From: Owenia fusiformis
Lineage: Eukaryota > Annelida > Polychaeta > Sabellida > Oweniidae
Assembly: GCA_903813345.2 (NCBI GenBank)
Contig: CAIIXF020000001.1
Span: forward strand, 8,499,098-8,563,097
Reading direction: 5' to 3'
Length of the DNA stretch: 64,000 nt
Position numbers and translations under genes: made by a program. A model generated the notes under the pieces. It made no database searches, was not told the DNA's origin, and worked only from the letters and a program-made list of their open reading frames with translations. Shown here piece by piece: positions 301-57,081 of the stretch. Position 1 is the stretch's first letter. Every line of letters begins with the position of its first letter.

Positions 301-9064
<8,764 letters not shown>

Positions 9065-9214: not shown

Positions 9215-11752
9215 TCATGGCCTGACTGCGTCGGTAGAACTAGAAATATAAGAGTTACCTAGAGATTGGGAGTCTTACTTACCTTCAAGTGGTTAGAACA
9301 CACATTTCAATGAAACCATTACACCTTTGTTTTGTTCATGATGAAGCATAATCACAGTACTTGATTGAAATTTGTGTAAATGCTTTTTGACTCTTCCATT
9401 TTTCCTGGTGTTGACTTCCGGGAAGGCGTTGCCCCTATCACGAAATAATGCATTGACCTTGAACTTTAATTTGATGACATATTATCCAACCATGTCTGAT
9501 GTGAAAAGAATTAGACAATTAAAAAGAATGTTTTGCAGACGAGTTTTGGACAGGGCATGGAAGGATGGCCTGTTCTAAGATAGAAGAAACTGCATGATCT
9601 ACAGTGTAACTATTGGTCTGAATGAAATGCTGCGCAGAAAGTATGAATGGGTCGTCTGCTGTATTAGTCTATTAACACAGTAGGACTGGTTCGTGATGCT
9701 TTAGACCAAAATATAGAAGAATACACACATGTGTAAATCATGAAATCAACGAACAAACATTCAATTTTCACATATGTTGGTAATTTCTTGTATTGAAACT
9801 TCCGGAACTTACAAGGAAATCATTCATTTTCACGGTCCATATTATACCTCTAGGATATTGTGCTAAATGCTCTATGGTTGACGCAACAAAGGTGAAAGGG
9901 TTTCATTGAAATGTTTGTTCTTACCCCTAGAAGGTAAGTAAGACTCGCAATCTTTATGTAACTCTTATATTTCTAGTTCTTCCGACGCAGTCAGGCCATG
10001 AAAAAAAAATTAGTAGGCCTACAGTATGTCTCTTGGGGCTTCTGTTCACTATGGAATATCCTACAGTGCTGATATATAATAATAAAGGGTGCGCTTTCAA
10101 ACTGCCCTGTCCTAAACTCGTCTGCAGAAGAGACCACAAAACATTATTTTCAAATACTTAATTATTTTTACATCAGACATGGTTGGATGATATGTCACAA
10201 AATTAAAGTTCAAGGTCAATATCATTGTTTCAGCCAATGATGCCAACAAGCAGATAGACGTTATCATAATGGACTTTGCTAAAGCCTTTGATAAGGTCTC
10301 TCACCGTCATCTTGCTTATAAGCTCGACTACTATGGCATCAGAGGACAAACCAATGCCTGGATCTCGGACTTTCTGTCTGATAGAACCCAGAAAGTCCGT
10401 GTGGATGGTGCTTCATCTGAAATCGGACAGGTAACATCTGGCGTGCCACAGGGAACGGTATTGGGACCGATATTATTCCTGCTGTATATTAACGACCTCC
10501 CAGATGCTCTACAACATACAACCCTCCGATTATTCGCTGATGACAGTATCATCTACAGAGAAGTAAAGACACCACAAGATGCCACTCTACTGCAAGAAGA
10601 TCTGAATGCAGCTGTAGAATGGGAGAAAACTTGGCTGATGAAGTTTCATCCTGACAAATGTACTGCATTGTTTGCCAAGTTAAATCCCAAAATCTACAAG
10701 TATGAAATGAGTGGACACACCTTGGAGCATATACCATCTGCTAGCTACCTTGGTGTTACCTTACAAGACAACCTCAAATGGAACCAGCACATAGACAAGT
10801 CTATATCCAAGAGCAACCAACTTCTTGGCATGCTGAGAAGACACCTGTGGAAGGCCCCTCGCCACACAAAGCAGATGGCTTACTTTACTCTTGTAAGACC
10901 AAGACTGGAGTATGCTGCTGCTGTATGGGATCCACACACCCAAACCCACATAGCTGCACTAGAAATGGTCCAACGAAGAGCTGCACGCTATGTGATGAAT
11001 GACTACAGCCGTTACAGCTCAGTGACAACAATGCTGAATACACTACAATGGACACCACTTGAAACGAGGAGACAGCAACAACGGTTGACGATGATGTATA
11101 AGATCAAACAACAACTTGTTGCAATCCAACCAGACACATACCTCATGCCTCTCCAGCGCAGATCAAGGACTTCAAATAGTGAGAGCTTCCAGAGGTACAG
11201 TTGCAGGAAGGATGCAATGCTCCATTCCTTTTTCCCACGCACCATACCTGAGTGGAATATACTACCCGACAGCATTGTATTGGCAGAGAGCTTAGACCAG
11301 TTCAAGACTAGTCTAAGGGCTCACTACCTTACACCCATGCCTTAATCTTATACTGTCTTTTAACCTATTGTTTTAGCTTTTTATTACCTAACACTGTTTT
11401 TAGCTCATGAACTTGTGTTGATGTTCATGTTTTAACTTTCTCGTACTAACCCGCGATATAATGATCAGTAAAATTGATCAATCGTGTATTCAAATGATGA
11501 ATGATGAATACAGTATTTCGTGATAGAGTCAGAGCCATCCCGGAAGTAAACACGAGGAAAATGGAAGAGTCCAAAAAGCATTATCACAAATTTCAATCAA
11601 GTACTGTGCTTATGCTTCATCATGAACAAAACATAGCTGATATGGTTTCATTAAAATGAGTGTTCTAGCCTCTAGAGGGTAAGTAAGACTCCTAGGCCTA
11701 ATCTTCAGATAAATCTTATTTTTCAAGTTCTACTGACGAAGTCAGGCCATGA
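9215..11752. mobile_element. Nested foldback DNA element interrupted by a LINE
   Basis: The sequence starting CATGGCCTGACTGCGTCGG at 9215-9440 is the reverse complement of 11510-11752, and 9440-9590 pairs with 10085-10240. A further inverted copy of the left end lies at about 9770-10000. The simplest reading is a foldback transposon with arms of 350 bp or more, a second partial copy inside it, and a LINE (about 10240-11500) inserted between the inner and outer part of the right arm. No transposase frame is visible. It lies upstream of WDR33. Confidence 0.75.
10269..11345 (+). mobile_element. 5'-truncated non-LTR retrotransposon, C-terminal half of reverse transcriptase open for 358 codons
   Basis: The uninterrupted frame begins inside the reverse transcriptase palm (MDFAKAFDKVSHRHL), followed by SGVPQGTVLGPILFLLYIND and the catalytic FADDS motif (family FADD), then the thumb and the C-terminal region with LEYAAAVWDPHT, RRAARYV and FFPRTIPEWN seen in CR1/Jockey-group LINEs. 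Endonuclease and the first half of the RT are missing, as expected from 5' truncation. The tail ends in repeats of ATGATGA near 11490. No stops or frameshifts in 358 codons suggest a fairly young insertion. The exact clade cannot be fixed by eye. Confidence 0.92.
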
Positions 11753-14851: not shown

Positions 14852-17800
14852 TCATGTATCCATTTTCTCCTCTCCTGAGGGCACAGTGTCCTTGTTCTCT
14901 GGAGCTGGGGCATCTGCCTTTGGAGGTGCTGAGTCACCTTCACCCTTAGTGGTTGATTCTGTTGTAGAGTCACCACTGAAATACAAAGGGATAATATTAA
15001 TTAATCAAAGCATAAAATTAACATTGAAGAGAAATAATACGTTCATAAACTTTTCAAGAAATGACAATAAAAATCTGTGTGTATGAGCCAACTGATTTCA
15101 ATGATAAAAACAGAGTTGTCACCAGCCATGTTGTTGATGCATTGACAGAGAGTTTGTGTAAAGAGTTAAACAAGCAATCCTCATCCCAATTACTTGAATC
15201 GTTACAAGAGATCTACATGTTTTGTCATGTTATAGACTTTGAAGTAGCTAAGCTCTACTCACTTTTTCACCTTGTTTTCTTCAGATTTTTCAACTTTGGA
15301 CTCTGTTGCGTCTGATTTCTGTTCCTTCTCCCCTTCAGCACCATCTTTATCTGGAACATAATGTGTGTATGTACTATGTATAACATCAATTCACAACAGA
15401 CATGTTCATTGGCCATTTCTTTCTTTCCCCGGTTGTGATATCTCACTTCTATAGCAAATATGTCTTTCATTGAGACAGTATGATGACATTGGGATGGTCA
15501 TATTCATGAGATGAAGCATGGGATTTGACATGAACATTACATAAAAAGTGTACAAGGAAAATTCTTTCATTTTTCTTTATCCCGAGTAGTAACAGGAAAT
15601 AAATTAATTGCTTCACTGAGAGAGGTTGGTTACAGATAAATGAGCTGAGATGTCAAAAAAAGACATTTTAATAACGCAGATGCGAGTAGGTAGTTACCCG
15701 TTTCACCACCAGGTGGCTCATTCGGGTCAGATAACATGGCCGGTATAGTAGAAAGTTCCCTTTAACTTAAATTACATCTGTTTTCGTGGTTCAATTTTCA
15801 TAGAACCCTTATGTATCTAATAGTTATGCAAATTAAAATATGCCCAGTAAAAGAAAATGTTATCTGTCCAATACAGGAAAAGATATTTCACTTTTTGTGA
15901 TTTTGTAACATGGGGTCTATGGGGAATCAACCTGAACAAGAAGTCACATTTTCAAAAAAAAAAAATTTTTTTAAATTGATCGAACAATTTTCGAAACCAC
16001 ATATCTCGATGTACTTTTACATGTAGATTTCAAATATGACATCACTTTGACTGAATTTTGAATATTTAATGACGTAAATCAAGATTATTTCTACTCGCAT
16101 CTAGTCTATTGTGAGACTGCAACAGCTTTTTGAAGGTCTTATTGCCCGTCATCTTTATAAGCTTATTTCCTCTGTAGGATTCAACTATATGTTCTGCTAT
16201 TTGCTATATCTTACCTGCGGTTTCTTTGTTATCATCATCATCGGTCTTAAGTTTCTTACGCTGGAAGCTTTGTCTGTCCCGGCGTCCATCCTCCCCCTCA
16301 TCTTCACTATCGCTGTATACACCATCATCTGTGATACGTTTGTCAGTGGCACGTACTACAATCCAATCAACGCTCATTATTAAAAGTAAATTCTATTTTG
16401 ATCATTTTTTATCGCATGATACTTTAAGCTAAATCATTAGAGAATTACTCTTCAAAACACATACATATCCCCTGAATTCTCAACTTTTCAATTTACTCAC
16501 AAGTGCTGACCTGCGTGCTACAGTTTTCTAAACAATTCAATGACATACAGTAGTATTGGACTTACTTGAGACTCGTTCATCTGGCTTTCTGTCATCTTCA
16601 CTTTCTTCATCATTGATAGCATCTTCAGGGATATCTGGATTTAAATAAAATACTTTATCATTTATATCCTATCTATTTTATATTGATGATATCTGCCAAC
16701 ATTGGGAATTAAACATATTTTTGTGATTTTTGTAAAACTTGATTATTTTGAAAAAGGTTCATCAGTTCTAATTCTGTGAACTGAGTTCATGATTTGAAAC
16801 AGGTTTTTCAATGTTTTCCACCATATAAGTTTTTGGATATAATGTTACACATGAACTAAATGAAACAGAAAACAATCTCACGTACTTTGCATTTGTACAC
16901 CAGGGGCATGAGGTAACATTCTGAGATTTTCAAATAACCGAGTTTTTATTTTGTCCATATATTCTGTGGTGTTCTGATTTGCCATGTTAGATGGGCTAAT
17001 GTGAAGCTTGAAGTCTGGTCCATAGTACTCAAAGTAGTCATTGTATGGTAGCTCTGAAATGCATCAAAATTTTTCTATCCATAACAAGTTTTATTGATAA
17101 CGTCTACCATATAGTATAACATATTTAACATAATATCGCTCTTTAAGATAACATATAGAATATTGGCAGCAATGACCCTTTCAGATCAGCAAACAACCAG
17201 AAAATACATGCTGATATACAGGATTTCAATTCCCATTTTTCATATTGCCAAAATAAATATGACAGAAATGTGGGGCAAGTTTTTTCAAATATTGCCTTTT
17301 GTGATTCTATGTTTTGCATGAAATAATTTAACATTCAAAATTCATTGTGTAATGTCGTTAGCTTCTTACCATTTGCCACATCCACCCCAAGGGCAATTGA
17401 GGTTTCATATGTCCAGCATCTTGCCACATTACGTATGGTGTAACCACCACCCCCAAGTAGTAGGAGAGGAAGATTGTATTTCTTCATGAAGTCAACACAT
17501 TTGCCATGACCTAGAAATACATAGTACATATATAATGCATGACCAATCCTGATGAATCACAATGGAGAAGTATCTTTATTATCATTATTAATTCAAGTAG
17601 GAATGCTGATGAATAAAACACTGTTCAGATCTTTTCTTAATATCTCTCTTGTCAACTTAAATAACATTGTATTTTAGATGAAAAGGAGAGTTATAGTGTA
17701 ATATAAATTTGTTTTTCGTTAATTGTAGTTTGCGCATGCGTCGTAAAAATCTTCAGAAAAATAAAAATAAATTTTAACTTTGTTTATCATTTTTAGAAGT

Positions 17801-20800
17801 GTTTTGGAGTATTTTATGCTGATTTTTGGAAATAAATCAGTCCCTTAGGGATTGATATGTATGTTCAGTATTGAGTATTCCATACCTTTCAATGTGAGGT
17901 TGAAGCAGCCAAGCCTGTCTCCAGAGAGTGAATCTGCCCCACACTGTAACACCACTGCACTGGGTTGGTACATCTCCATTACCTTACACATTACCTATAT
18001 ATACACAAATGCTACATAGTTAAAATTGCAAACAATGGAGTTCATAGGCACAATTACTACATGTAGTACTCATATCCTTACCCTAATTTTCTAAAGGTTC
18101 AATTAATTTTTTAGACTATTCAAATCAATGTGCAGGACCTGGAATTCACAAACGAGGGTGCAAACAGCAAAAATGTAAAATGAGAATTCCAGGTACTCTA
18201 TTATAAGCAAACATAAAGAGACATACAAGGCTTTTTGTCCTGATATGATGATAAGCATGGTGATGAAAGACATTCTTAAATTTCTGGACAATGACAGTAG
18301 ATATGGTCTAAACATGCAATCAGTAAAAACAAAGCTAGAGCGAGACAAGACAATTATTACACAAGCAGTCATATATAAAGTTATATATGGGAACTGTTTA
18401 TGTATTTGGTGTGAAAATTACAATTATACACTTATATAAAATTGAGATATGGCATTGGTATTCAAGAAATCAAAGTAGAGATACTCCTTTGAAAGTTTGT
18501 CAGCCATTCACTTCATATATAAAAAAAAAAAAGCCATTCACTTCATGAACCATGAATTATATGTTCTATATATGGTTCATAGAATGGATATTTGTAGAAA
18601 ACTGTGAATGACTATTATTTGGAGCCCTTTATTTATTTAAATTATTATTGAGTCATATTTCTTACCGACATGAAAATCCCTCTTGGATTATCAATTCATT
18701 GAGAAGAATCTTATATTAAATGTATGGTTGTATATGTATACTACATAGATAAATGTTTTGAAACCAGTCACAGCATGCATAAACCTACATTCCCACTTAT
18801 TTCCATATTACACCAATGGGCCTAATCAATAAGCAATATTATGATGTCTGAAGGGGCCCAAATCTTTTAAAACTATTAAATGGATATGATATTTTGAAGT
18901 AATTTGCATTTGTCTTATACATTTCCAGCATCACACTTTCATAGAAAGACTAATGTATTACCAGCAAGATGAGCCCTTATGTTACCATAGCAACTATTAC
19001 CAAAGCAACATGTATCTATGATAAGTTGATAACATGGCAATGGAACATGAAATATGGTGAACTGCACATAAGCTCGGACCAGCCCTTACCTAGCCTACAA
19101 AAGTGACAGTACAAGGAGAGGTCTCAAAATGCAGTTAAGTCCATTCATAAATTAAGTGATTTTGAATTTAGAATTTGCTAATTGAAAAAAATATAGAAAC
19201 ATAATTTACATTCCATTAGTTTGATTATGTAGAATGTAAATGGACAATTTTGAATGATAATAATTGGGTTATATGAGACATACTCCAAGCTGCCTGTAGG
19301 ATAAGCTGGGCATGGGGACCAACACTTACTGGCTGGAATATTTGTTCATATGACTCATCGTTAATTCCATCTCTCAGAGGGAAGTTAACGGCGTAATATT
19401 TACCCTTTCCCGCACCAATGTCCTATAATAGAGGAAAATGTTGGTGTCAGAGATTATAGACCTTACACTTCATTAAGATTGCCATGTGCAATGTGAAGGG
19501 TCTATGCTAATTGCTGATACCATTTTCAGTAGTTTATAGGTCAGATGGCACATAGAATCTTCACATCACTGGCACATTTCAATATCTTCACAAGAAACCT
19601 ACTGATTGAAATATTGTCTGGAATGAGTCATCATCGATGCCATCACGAAGAGGGAAGTTCACTGCATAGTATTTACCCTTGCCTGCTCCTATGTCCTACA
19701 AAGTTACAATTTCAAGGGAAACATGAAATACAATATTTGATCAATGTGTAAATGCAAACCTAATTCTTTGAAGACATGACTTTTATAATATTATCGATAT
19801 TGAATACTACGATTTGATGCAGGTATTTTCAAAGAAACATCAAGCTATTCGATAATTATACGAGTTTGATTCCTGATAAATTATTTTACATTAATTTCAT
19901 ACATGTCATGTACATTATGATATATACAGGATACAATAACTGCATGTATTCAGTACTCACCCTGAGATCACCAGTGCCTGGGAAGTACTCCCCGTATTTA
20001 TGGAAGGAGACAGTCATCACTCTATCTGTGGTATAGAATGCCTCCTCTACTCCATCACCGTGATGGATGTCAATATCTATGTATAACACACGTTGGTGGT
20101 ATCTGCAATAAAATTGAGTATAACTTAGAAATATGAAATAGCGATGATCACTTTATGGTCTTCACTATGCGTCTCCTTGACAGCTTGTGGTTAAAAAATT
20201 AAATTGAATTAAAATAAGTTGTATATTAATTATATATAAATTTGAGATTTACTTTGTGTTTTGTAACTTTTTAAACTTTTTTGTGCATGTCATTGAGAAA
20301 CAAATCTACCTGAAAAGATATGAATTCAATAAATGACATACAAAGATTTGAACATTGGTAAAGTCTTACTTGAGGAGTTCTAATATTCCCAACACAATAT
20401 CATTGACATAACAGAATCCAGAAGCCTCAGATTTCTTAGCGTGATGAAGTCCACCACCCCAGTTTATGGCAATATCTGCAGCCTGCTTGTTCAGTTTAAC
20501 AGCTCCAGCTAAAAGAACGAGAGAACAAGTTACTTCAGAAAGTTACTTGTGAAATAATTATATTTTTTTATCTATATTATGTTCAATTAATAATTCAGCT
20601 CCATACTAATTATGAATATTTCACAAGTTAAAATAGTTTGAACATCTTGTGTCATAAAAATAAATGTAATACATGTAATTACCCAAATGCGAGTAGGTAG
20701 TTACCAGTTTCACCACCAGGTGGCTGATTCGGGTCAATTAACATGGCAGGTATATAAGAAAGTTCCCTTAAACTACAATATTATTAATTTAAGTGGCTCA

Positions 20801-23155
20801 ATTTTCATATAACCCTTATGTGTCTGATACTTATACTAATGAAAATATGTCCAGTAAAGCAAAATATTATCTGTCCACTCAAAGAAAAGATATTTCATTT
20901 TTTGTGGTTTTATAGCATGGGGTCTATGGGGAATCTCCCCGAGCTAGAAGTCACATTTTCAAAGAAAATTAATTTTTCAAAGTTGATAAACACTTTTTAA
21001 AACCACATTTCTAGATGTAATTTTACATGTAGATTTCAAATATGATATTACTTTGACTGAATTTTGAATTTTTAATGACGTAAATCAAGATTATTTCTAC
21101 TCGCATGTGGGTTATTCATTATTTCCAACTTACCTACAGAGCCCCCTGTTGAGAGTTGGCAGAACTCATACATTCCATCAAATACTGGGCAATCTTCTCC
21201 TACATTGACTGAAAAAATCAGTAAGAAGTAAGTTTGTGTTAACAAAATGTAATTGAAAAGCTCAGACATATAATATGATGTAAATACTTCACAATGTATG
21301 AGAAATGGTTTTATGTTGGCTCAGAAGAACTTTGTTAAATTCTATAAAGTGAAGTTTTGATAATATTTTTCTTGGAACTTGAAATTTTATGTCAGAATTC
21401 CTTAGACTTACATCTTTGCATCTGTTTGTTGTATTCTGACATGTTGTCTGGCCTGATGCTACGCAGAAACTTAATGTAATCATCACTGTGGAATTTTGTC
21501 ATCTCTTCCTGTGTGGCTTTATGAGGACGCTGGACAAATAGGAAAACGAAGAAACAATGTACATGTACAATAAGTAACATGTATTCTCGAGAACAAATTA
21601 CATGTTCACAATATGAAGTACCCTCATGCAAATCAAATATATATGAAAGAGGCCCTGTTACTGTAAGCCTCCTCTTATTTCCCCTCATAAAAAACACGAA
21701 TTAACTGCCCTATATATATTATATATGAAACTAGATGTATAGTAATGCATTAAATTGTACTCACATATATCTCCATCTTTCTATAGAGGCCATAATTTAG
21801 TAACAGGTTGTGTGTCATGCGTATACGATGGGGCTTCATGGGATGACCTTGGCCATAGTAGTAGTTGCCAATGTCTCCTGAAACATATAATGATTGTACA
21901 TTAAAAGCTGAAACCATATATTAAGTTAAAGTTATGCTTGATGGGACCTTTGTTACAAATTCTATTGAATAAAGGGCAAATATTCTGAAAAACATACAGT
22001 GAGTACACTAATACAGAACCTGAGACTAACATGATTTCATGTTAGTCTCAGTTTCTATATAGACTATAGGCTAGAGATTTGAGAAATGTCCTAGTTGACA
22101 TTATCCATTTGAGACTGTTTCAAAAAGAAAGATGTTATACTTTATGAAAGCAAAGCATTTTATGATAGACAATAAATAATAGTGGTTATTTTTTTCAATG
22201 AAATCGTGATATTTTTTTTTATATGACTAACAAAGAAACAGCCATCTTTACCCCATGCAAGATATTGCAATCTTTCATACTAAAAAGTCACATGCAAGAT
22301 GAGATTAACTTGTGACATCACTGGTTTATCAACATGACAACAGATACAACGATGTTATAACATCATTGCAATTGAAAGATGGTTTTATCATAAAAGAAAG
22401 GTGACAGTATGAGTATGGCTAACCAAACCCGTCTGGCCCAGTTATCTACTCCTGACGTCGTAGATCTTCGGAAGTAGATAACTGGGCCAGACGGGTTTGG
22501 TTAGAGTATGGCATAATTTAGAGTCATATGAGAAAAACATTCTTGTACTCGTACCTGTGCAATATCGTCCATCCTTGACTCGCTTTGATAATGATCTCAT
22601 CTCTGACTCGATAAAGAAGAATTATTAAAGCTCATCAAGTATAGACGATCTTACACAGCTACTCATACAAGAACTTCTATGTCTAAATGGAAATTATATC
22701 AAATTATTTACTTGAAACAATACTTGAAATTATCGGCCATATTGAACTACGAAATTATGGGCTTCCGTACTTCATTGTGCTTGTTTTGTCAGCTTGTTTT
22801 GTCGGTTTAAAAATGTACAGTTATGCAGATCATCGGTAGGACAAATGATATAAAACTAATTTGAGAATAGGCAATCCTATGTATCGTCACATCTTGAAAC
22901 TGAATCGAATTGATTGTGATTTATGGAAGCGTGGGTATTATGATCGCACCGGTTTTGAAATTTGTTGAATGAATCGCGCTTCTTCTGAAGTTTGAGTATC
23001 GAATCAGAAAAAATATGTGTTGAATCACAACGAAATCTGTGCATATGCAACTGCAATATCAAAGGAATACATAGAAGTGAATAAATACTAAATAAAGTAT
23101 ACATACCATCGTAATAATAGCAAATCTTTTTCTTACTATGCGGAGTACTCGACAT
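14852..23155 (-). CDS. HDAC1: Histone deacetylase 1/2 (class I HDAC), complete
   Basis: Zinc-dependent lysine deacetylase of Sin3, NuRD and CoREST complexes. Exons: 23155-23107, 21877-21765, 21529-21412, 21208-21134, 20508-20370, 20102-19961, one of 19695-19603 or 19422-19330, then 17994-17886, 17510-17370, 17053-16886, 16634-16566, 16355-16215, 15350-15263, 14975-14852. With one of the two alternative exons the frame is 1569 bases, 522 residues plus stop (vertebrate HDAC1/2 about 485). Catalytic parts are intact: [14 protein letters not shown] (His 140/141), [12 protein letters not shown] (Asp174, His176), [12 protein letters not shown] (Asp264), [14 protein letters not shown] (Tyr303). The tail from about residue 375 is acidic then lysine/glutamate-rich, with [19 protein letters not shown] resembling the CK2-phosphorylated serines of HDAC1/2; it is longer than in vertebrates and ends GEEKMDT. 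Intron 1 holds an 85-bp palindromic element, other introns two related MITEs. Confidence 0.97.
15680..16100. mobile_element. MITE with ATGCGAGTAG ends, copy 1
   Basis: The ends ATGCGAGTAG and CTACTCGCAT are inverted repeats around 421 bp of non-coding sequence (GTAGTTACC, CACCACCAGGTGGCT, ACATGGGGTCTATGGGGAAT). The same element is found at 20687-21106 in the same orientation. It lies in an HDAC1 intron, next to exon 16355-16215. Confidence 0.75.
19330..19422 (-). other. HDAC1: HDAC1 alternative exon 7, distal copy
   Basis: 93 bases between CTATTATAG and GTAAGTG, phase 0 at both ends. It encodes residues 213-243, beginning [20 protein letters not shown] and ending [11 protein letters not shown]. 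It joins exon 20102-19961 (ending GTGDLR) to exon 17994-17886 (starting VMCKVMEM). The neighbouring copy at 19603-19695 has the same length and phase, so either gives a complete deacetylase fold. Confidence 0.9.
19603..19695 (-). other. HDAC1: HDAC1 alternative exon 7, proximal copy
   Basis: 93 bases between ACTTTGTAG and GTAGGTTT, phase 0 at both ends. The first 20 residues are identical to the distal copy; the last 11 read [11 protein letters not shown], against [11 protein letters not shown]. Twelve of the 20 shared codons differ only at synonymous positions, so the duplication is old and the protein sequence has been kept. Inclusion of both exons would stay in frame but duplicate a 31-residue strand-loop-helix segment in the catalytic domain, which makes mutually exclusive use the likely mode. 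Confidence 0.9.
20687..21106. mobile_element. MITE with ATGCGAGTAG ends, copy 2
   Basis: 420 bp, same orientation and layout as 15680-16100, ending CTACTCGCAT. It sits in the HDAC1 intron between exons 21208-21134 and 20508-20370. Confidence 0.75.
22419..22503. mobile_element. 85-bp palindromic mini-element with 8-bp target duplication
   Basis: Positions 22419-22450 are the perfect reverse complement of 22473-22504 (32 of 32), with a 22-base loop. GAGTATGG occurs directly on both sides (22411-22418 and 22504-22511), as expected for a target site duplication; the last G of the right arm is shared with it. The element lies in HDAC1 intron 1. Confidence 0.8.
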
Positions 23156-27405: not shown

Positions 27406-33414
<6,009 letters not shown>

Positions 33415-55610: not shown

Positions 55611-57081
55611 GGGTTTGTAGAAAAACCGGGTACCGGGTAGTAAATCCTCCATGCCGGGTTCAAACTTGGTACCCAGTACCCGGTCGAAAAAACCAGGTAC
55701 CTAAAAACGAAAAATACAAAAATATAACATAATTAGATCATTAGAAAACGTATAAGATTTGTTTTGAATTTACAAAAGTGTATGTAACTGCCTTCAAAAT
55801 TGAGCTAGAAGCTTCAAATAAAAAGCATTTTAAGGCCCTTTTCTTCCTTTATCATCATGGTCATATTTTATCGCACCATCAAACCCCCTCCTGGCTAAGA
55901 CTATGACATTGTAAGACGATTTGAAAAACATGACAAATCAATCTTACTCTATATTAGAGGTGTGAATTTTTAATCGATCATCGATTAATTGATCGACACA
56001 CATTTAATCGAATAAGATTCTTATCACTCAATTAACTGATTCTCAAAAAGTTAATCTTCAATATCCCGCCGCGAGTAAGCTTACGTGACGTCACTGACTG
56101 ATTGAGCAGTGAATGTCAGGTTGCCACGCCAAGCTCAAACTACCAAACAAACTAATTACCCGAAGACTGACACTTACCTGTGACCTTTGTTGTTTTTTGA
56201 GTTTAATACCAATCCAATACATCCCATTGGTTTATTCAGTAGAAGTATGCGATCAAATTCAAGGTGAATAGTGGTGTATAATTTGAATGCAACCGTCCCA
56301 ATTTTATTCAGTCCAGAAGCAGTCGAAAAATGGCGACAACACCAGGAAAAAGAAGTTATGTATGGAAATATTTCAACAAAGAAGACGATGATCGCGTCAA
56401 ATGTTTGCTCTGCAATAATAAATACGAATATTCAAACAGTACATCTACTCTAAGCTACCACTTGTCAAATGCACACGGGGAAACTCCGAAAATAAATACT
56501 CCGACGTCGCCAATAACTTCATTTCTAGTCAGAAAGTCGGGACCCGTTTCTAAACTTGCCGCTGAAGATATCACTTATAAATTTGTCAATATGATTGTGG
56601 TCGACCTTCGTCCGATATCGCTTGTAGAAGGGCGAGGCTTTAATAGAACTAATGGGACATTTACGCCCAGGGTACAATGTGCCGAAGCGCAAAACAATAA
56701 CTCGTCGTATGGAATTAGAATTTGAGAAGGGTCAGATATCAGATTGGGGTCGATTAACCGATGATTAATCGATTAATATGTTTCGTTGATCGATTAAGTA
56801 ATGTGCCATCGGTGCACACCTCTACTCTATATGACCATGATGAGCCTTTTAAATGCTTTTTATTTGAAGCTTCTAGCTCAATTGCTCAATTTTTAAGGAA
56901 GTTACATACATTTTTGTAAATCCAAAACAAATCTTACACATTTTCTAATGATCTAATTACGTTATATTTTCATATTTTTCTTTTTTTAGTACCCGGTTTT
57001 TATGACCGGGTACCAAGTTTGAACCCAGCATGGAGGATTTACTACCCAGTACCCGGTACCTGGTTTTTTCTACAAACCCAT
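55611..57081. mobile_element. Foldback element split by a hAT element
   Basis: GGGTTTGTAGAAAAACCGGG at the left is reversed in the right end (GGTTTTTTCTACAAACCC); arms of about 250-300 bp include ACCCGGTACC repeats and GAGCTAGAAGCTTCAAATAAA. The hAT element 55955-56824 fills the centre. Confidence 0.8.
55955..56824 (+). mobile_element. hAT-type transposon carrying only a BED-finger open frame
   Basis: The ends TAGAGGTGTG and CACACCTCTA are perfect 10-bp inverted repeats, flanked by the 8-bp duplication CTCTATAT (55947-55954 and 56825-56832). ATCGATTAATCGAT motifs lie inside both ends. An open frame at 56330-56725 encodes 131 residues: MATTPGKRSYVWKYF, a BED zinc finger (VKCLLCNNKY..LSYHLSNAH), and PITSFLVRKSGP..ITYKFVNMIVVDLRPISLVE, the N-terminal part of hAT transposases. 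The catalytic region is deleted. Confidence 0.9.

Follow-up and report, generated by a model that had tools for sequence, protein, structure and literature searches.

The HDAC1 gene of the annelid Owenia fusiformis was found to contain two adjacent versions of one exon of its catalytic domain, here named A (upstream) and B (downstream). Both copies are open and constrained, have usable-looking splice sites and lie in an otherwise complete gene. They are probably an old tandem exon pair that is used alternatively, perhaps with B as the default and A included with the help of splicing factors. All positions refer to the window, the 64,000-nt stretch of contig CAIIXF020000001.1 that was analysed (Table 1).

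The HDAC1 gene and its exon pair

The rebuilt gene has GT-AG boundaries at 14 of 14 introns and encodes 522 residues with either A or B, with zero internal stops. Among the best 60 of 136 matches, the top full-length solved relatives of the protein were human HDAC1 and HDAC2 (about 895 bits), followed at lower scores by Rpd3 (631 bits), clr6 (610 bits), HDAC3 (600 bits), a chain named HDAC7 (462 bits) and HDAC8 (at most 369 bits). The Hist_deacetyl domain (PF00850) was present at 303–304 bits against a cut-off of 27.9, for the first 388 residues of the single-copy isoforms. The residues which we take to be catalytic (His140, His141, Asp176, His178, Asp264 and Tyr303) are identical to those of the relatives in the alignment, as in class I enzymes of the HDAC1/2 group. 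The B form is 87–88% identical to human HDAC1 and HDAC2 over 217 core residues and aligns without gaps to human HDAC1 across the catalytic core, which allows human residue numbering to be used. By homology, the gene is an animal-type HDAC1, a class I histone deacetylase of the HDAC1/2 group. Annelids are described in the available text of PMC12153100 as having at least one hdac1/2 gene, with a duplicate gene in one species.

Two different introns of the gene also carry a dispersed repeat of about 440 nt (15669–16110 and 20676–21116) in the same orientation, with 84% identity between the copies.

Table 1. Positions of the HDAC1 gene, the exon pair and neighbouring features in the window.
Feature	Position	Strand	Remarks
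HDAC1 gene model, whole	14852..23155	(-)	presumed ATG at 23155 to stop at 14852, 15 coding exons; from homology
Upstream constitutive exon, metal-site segment inside	19961..20102	(-)	its donor would serve A or B
Exon A, upstream copy, divergent	19603..19695	(-)	weakest donor of the HDAC1 gene
Intron between A and B	19423..19602	(-)	180 nt, GT-AG; CTGAC, branch-point-like, 24 nt before the 3' splice site
A-B intron stretch, hairpin-forming	19463..19519	(-)	weak lead; similar stretch downstream of B
Exon B, downstream copy, conventional	19330..19422	(-)	from sequence and class I enzyme comparison
Matching stretch downstream of B, hairpin-forming	19206..19262	(-)	weak lead; marginal significance
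Downstream constitutive exon	17886..17994	(-)	its acceptor would serve A or B

Exons A and B each count 93 nt, start and end in phase 0, are flanked by GT-AG introns and encode residues 213–243 (human numbering). Neither contains an in-frame stop, and they agree at 25 of 31 residues and at 68 of 93 bases. Both peptides begin with the same 20 residues, yet 12 of these 20 codons differ, all by silent changes (13 of 13 base changes). In the last 11 residues, six positions differ (233, 235, 237, 238, 239 and 243) and five are common. A preliminary description of this DNA had given the same coordinates, 93-nt lengths, peptides and shared phase, had counted 12 silently different codons among the 20 shared ones and had placed the divergence in the last 11 residues, and each of these points was reproduced exactly on recheck. 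In similar length, frame, splice-site pattern and homology, A and B have the sequence properties of mutually exclusive tandem pairs.

Constraint on the two copies

With 42 of the 180 possible single changes in the first 20 codons silent in each copy, 13 silent changes out of 13 have a probability of about 6×10−9 by chance, an estimate that assumes equal rates for all single-base changes. The confinement of all six replacements to the last 11 of 31 codons has a chance probability of 6×10−4. The Nei-Gojobori dN over the first 20 codons was 0.022; its departure from zero stems from the codon pair CGT/AGA, for which two-step paths are averaged. The dS between A and B was undefined (reported as −1), which we read as saturation, so that the duplication is probably old, a reading from which no date follows. 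The silent changes and the confined replacements support well the earlier proposal that both copies have long been under selection at the protein level. A recent allelic or assembly duplication was ruled out, as 25 of 93 bases differ and dS is undefined.

When all 15 exons were searched with tblastn against the 64-kb window, A and B matched each other (E = 5×10−15 and 1×10−14) and no second copy of any other exon was found, the best other non-self match having an E-value of 0.25. No third copy of the pair was found in the window at E-values up to 1; the sole extra hit was a 12-residue match (E = 0.90). As background, 1513 open fragments were scanned, which yielded 106 near same-strand matches in seven pairs after clustering (nine clustered rows, two pairs being present in both directions; a weaker pair close to a stronger one may be masked by this step). 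Among the six of seven pairs for which both values were computed, A/B was the only one in which protein identity (81%) exceeded DNA identity (74%) by more than one point. Relatives of the pair were also sought in virus, bacteria and archaea collections, which have no bearing on other animals: the full protein in viral contigs and a degenerate exon pattern in viral and bacterial/archaeal contigs gave zero matches, and a four-row alignment search of viral and genome contigs gave 67 and 84 pattern matches, of which none was confirmed by tblastn.

Several other repeats and coding fragments were observed in the window. A 449-nt unit is present twice in tandem with a 99% match (29170–30069) between two Membralin-like open stretches on the minus strand, which have PF09746 matches in 28624–29016 and 32544–32996. 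At 5318–6050, a 145-nt unit forms a tandem array of some five copies (91% match), and TACATGTA occurs 22 times in the whole window, with about 2.3 occurrences expected from base composition. On the plus strand, an open reverse transcriptase fragment (PF00078, 74 bits) at 10191–11342 is probably part of a retroelement, and an open frame at 56282–56722 that encodes a BED zinc finger (PF02892) perhaps belongs to a transposon or a derived gene.

The end of the exon was compared at residues 233–243 with six class I enzymes (human HDAC1, HDAC2, HDAC3 and HDAC8, yeast Rpd3 and fission-yeast clr6), the chain named HDAC7 being left out of this residue table. Of the 11 positions, eight in B and five in A agree with human HDAC1, and the counts for HDAC2 are the same. 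Tyr237 is found in all six enzymes and in B, with Phe in A; Pro243 is found in five of the six and in B, with Ser in A, the same as in HDAC8. Asn233 is an oddity of B itself, as five of the six enzymes have Asp there. Judged by these residues, A is the more unusual version and B the conventional one.

Residues 213–243 presumably form the VNFPLRDGI strand and then a helix, assignments taken from general knowledge of the HDAC fold. Tyr222, which we take to be the counterpart of an HDAC8 residue at the potassium site, is retained in both copies. Lys218 and Lys220 are likewise retained in both; according to the accessible text of PMC6527704, these are two acetylation sites whose modification reportedly inactivates human HDAC1. 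The Pfam domain score for the first 388 residues was 303.2 bits with B and 304.0 bits with A, and this equal scoring indicates that A has not decayed.

Splice sites and the choice between the copies

The donor of A (TCA|GTAGGT) scored 3.64 and is the weakest of 14 in the gene; that of B scored 7.46 and the other 12 ranged from 5.69 to 9.11, the scores being trained on a small set, namely the donors of this same HDAC1 gene. The acceptors of A and B are average (4.61 and 4.97; others 1.87–10.39). Both exons had been described earlier as having good splice sites, a statement that holds for the ordinary donor of B and needs qualifying for that of A. With the weakest donor on A and average acceptors on both, B would be favoured as the default, and A would need the help of splicing factors.

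The weak donor of A, together with the replacement of Tyr237 and Pro243, could also be read as a sign that only B is used and that A is a relic, or very rarely included, and has not yet decayed. This is unlikely, since A keeps its frame, length, both splice dinucleotides and full Pfam score, and about three quarters of the share of the 13 changes that fell on a drifting A would be expected to be replacements, while none was seen. That A and B are both used, as alternatives, is very probable.

The preliminary description went further and proposed two mutually exclusive isoforms. The two isoforms remain the best explanation, and strict mutual exclusion of A and B is likely; it is a step that we infer, as the enforcement mechanisms tested were not found. 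Because 93 is divisible by three, inclusion of both copies or of neither leaves the frame open, and nonsense decay cannot enforce the choice. No branch point was found near the donor of A in the 180-nt A-B intron, where the predicted branch-point-like words lie at least 62 nt away; the AG-free stretch before the acceptor of B counts 37 nt, within a range of 15–72 nt for the gene. Introns 6, 7 and 8 contain neither ATATCCTT nor GTATCCTT, the donor words of U12 introns. Splicing-factor words, such as TGCATG, are absent from introns 6 and 7 and from exons A and B; two copies of TGCATG lie far inside the 1335-nt intron 8. Branch-point distance, U2/U12 mismatch and frame are sufficient but not necessary features of enforcement, and none of them was found for A/B. 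In a human survey of 629 clusters, 57 were attributed to steric hindrance, five to U12 sites and 484 to other mechanisms (main text of PMC5740500).

One further mechanism for the choice would be competing intronic RNA structures, as proposed by Ivanov and Pervouchine for an exon duplicated together with an intronic stem-loop (available text of PMC6071210). A similar stretch of 58 columns does occur in the intron after A and in the intron after B, at comparable distance from the exon, and each of the two can form a hairpin. The similarity score for the first 150 nt was reached by 0 of 300 base-shuffled and 8 of 1000 dinucleotide-shuffled pairs, but by 31 of 1000 shuffles when 180 nt were taken and by 143 of 300 over the whole introns; in the 64-kb window, 17 and 78 of 1704 windows of 150 nt reached it, self matches included. 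Local folds were slightly more stable than those of shuffles: z was −1.47 for the A-B intron, a value that 5 of 100 shuffles also attained, and −1.58 for the region spanning A and B (6 of 100). The hairpin, which was chosen post hoc, had a z of −2.22 (5 of 100 shuffles as low), while hairpins on slightly longer stretches were unremarkable (z = −0.73 and −1.26). Pairing between introns 6, 7 and 8 showed no excess over shuffles in a crude whole-length test (z = −0.06 to 0.99), and the regions upstream of A and B have no sequence in common (986 of 1000 shuffles reach their score of 9). With pairing at background level and intronic similarity marginal in this search for docking and selector structures in one genome, a choice made through competing RNA structures is quite unlikely.

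Double inclusion and double skipping, both in frame, would give proteins of 553 and 491 residues. As no obstacle, steric or of frame, was found to joining the two copies, A and B could be neighbouring cassette exons from which these forms are also made, maybe as inactive competitors. The protein with both copies still has a high Pfam score, summed to 316.8 bits over two stretches, above the single-copy scores for the first 388 residues; this higher value arises because the repeat is counted twice, so the score alone carries no penalty for double inclusion. Double inclusion breaks the single domain match, which fits the earlier suggestion that it would insert a duplicate strand and helix. Without either copy, the score falls by about 52 bits to 250.7, again in two stretches.

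The cassette possibility is also opposed by zebrafish hdac1, where, in the available text of PMC6538190, a donor mutation of exon 7 led to skipping (a predicted deletion of 32 residues) or to intron retention, and both normal and shortened Hdac1 protein were undetected. As intron retention breaks the zebrafish frame after residue 213, exon 7 evidently corresponds to the A/B exon, and its skipping is in frame, as is the case here. It is a single exon and its skipping deletes 32 residues, whereas two copies of 31 residues are present here. The loss of protein indicates that at least one copy is probably needed; the accessible text of that paper gives no activity test of the exon-less protein. 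Of 16180 Drosophila X-chromosome exons annotated as not mutually exclusive, 90 resemble a neighbour in length, frame and homology (available text of PMC3228551), so that exons of other kinds seldom have these features there; applying this to the present animal is an extrapolation. Use of A and B as independent cassettes is considered very unlikely.

Old alternative exons thus remain the preferred reading. A tandem duplication of the HDAC1 exon for residues 213–243 would have left two copies that still code, and each mature mRNA would most likely carry one of them. B, with its ordinary donor and conventional sequence, would be taken by default, and A would be used where splicing factors compensate for its weak donor. 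A tentative proposal, at somewhat less than an even chance, is that the weak donor of A and trans-acting factors control the choice, and not RNA structure or nonsense decay. Both proteins would have the same whole catalytic scaffold, with the strand and the regulatory lysines of this segment in common; the differences would lie at six positions where the helix after the VNFPLRDGI strand begins. A functional difference between the isoforms is rather more probable than its absence; it may tune activity without removing it, for example through stability or through the fit of co-repressor partners.

Known exon duplications and significance

In the main texts of PMC9741552, PMC5740500 and PMC3228551, tandem duplicated exon pairs are neighbouring homologues that match in length, phase and splice type, in which conserved residues are kept and milder changes occur elsewhere, as in A and B. 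The present pair differs in lying in the catalytic core of a class I histone deacetylase, with an exclusivity that is likely. The words HDAC and deacetylase are absent from the main texts of PMC9741552 and PMC3228551, and HDAC is absent from that of PMC5740500. Among the papers listed by a literature search, whose scope excluded most subscription papers, supplements and gene-annotation databases, none was seen to describe an HDAC1 exon as duplicated or mutually exclusive.

Two duplicated exons of other enzymes offer a closer comparison. Exon 10 of the oyster alternative oxidase (AOX) gene is duplicated, the downstream copy being conserved across taxa and the upstream copy having new changes near functional sites (available text of PMC5589949), a pattern shared with B and A. 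The oyster exon is terminal and has its own stop, one mRNA contains both copies and their use was shown by mRNA; the A/B exon, in contrast, is internal, and use of both its copies is predicted. Exons 4a and 4b of OGDH are also a duplicated pair in a conserved enzyme, and their exclusivity is achieved by distant branch points 25–41 nt from the donor (available text of PMC7969005). Unlike in OGDH, the predicted branch words of the HDAC1 pair lie well beyond that distance from the donor of A, and the AG-free stretch before B takes up 37 nt of the 180-nt intron.

Tandem exon pairs are known as a kind, and the unusual part is the gene, in which a core chromatin deacetylase would vary within its catalytic fold. 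HDAC1, which is highly conserved, serves several repressor complexes as their common catalytic subunit. In a speculative and rather doubtful extension, the products of one HDAC1 gene might be two deacetylases, both catalytically competent and distinguished only where one core helix begins, which choose partners or set activity according to tissue or stage; they would be a splicing-based counterpart of the vertebrate HDAC1/HDAC2 gene pair.

As neither frame nor the distance between donor and branch point seems able to explain the exclusivity of A and B, control by a weak site or by factors is directly testable. If the reading is true, A and B would be a natural pair of core variants on the same scaffold, in which six changes provide a ready-made experiment on the role of the helix, and splicing would be able to diversify a core chromatin enzyme inside its fold.
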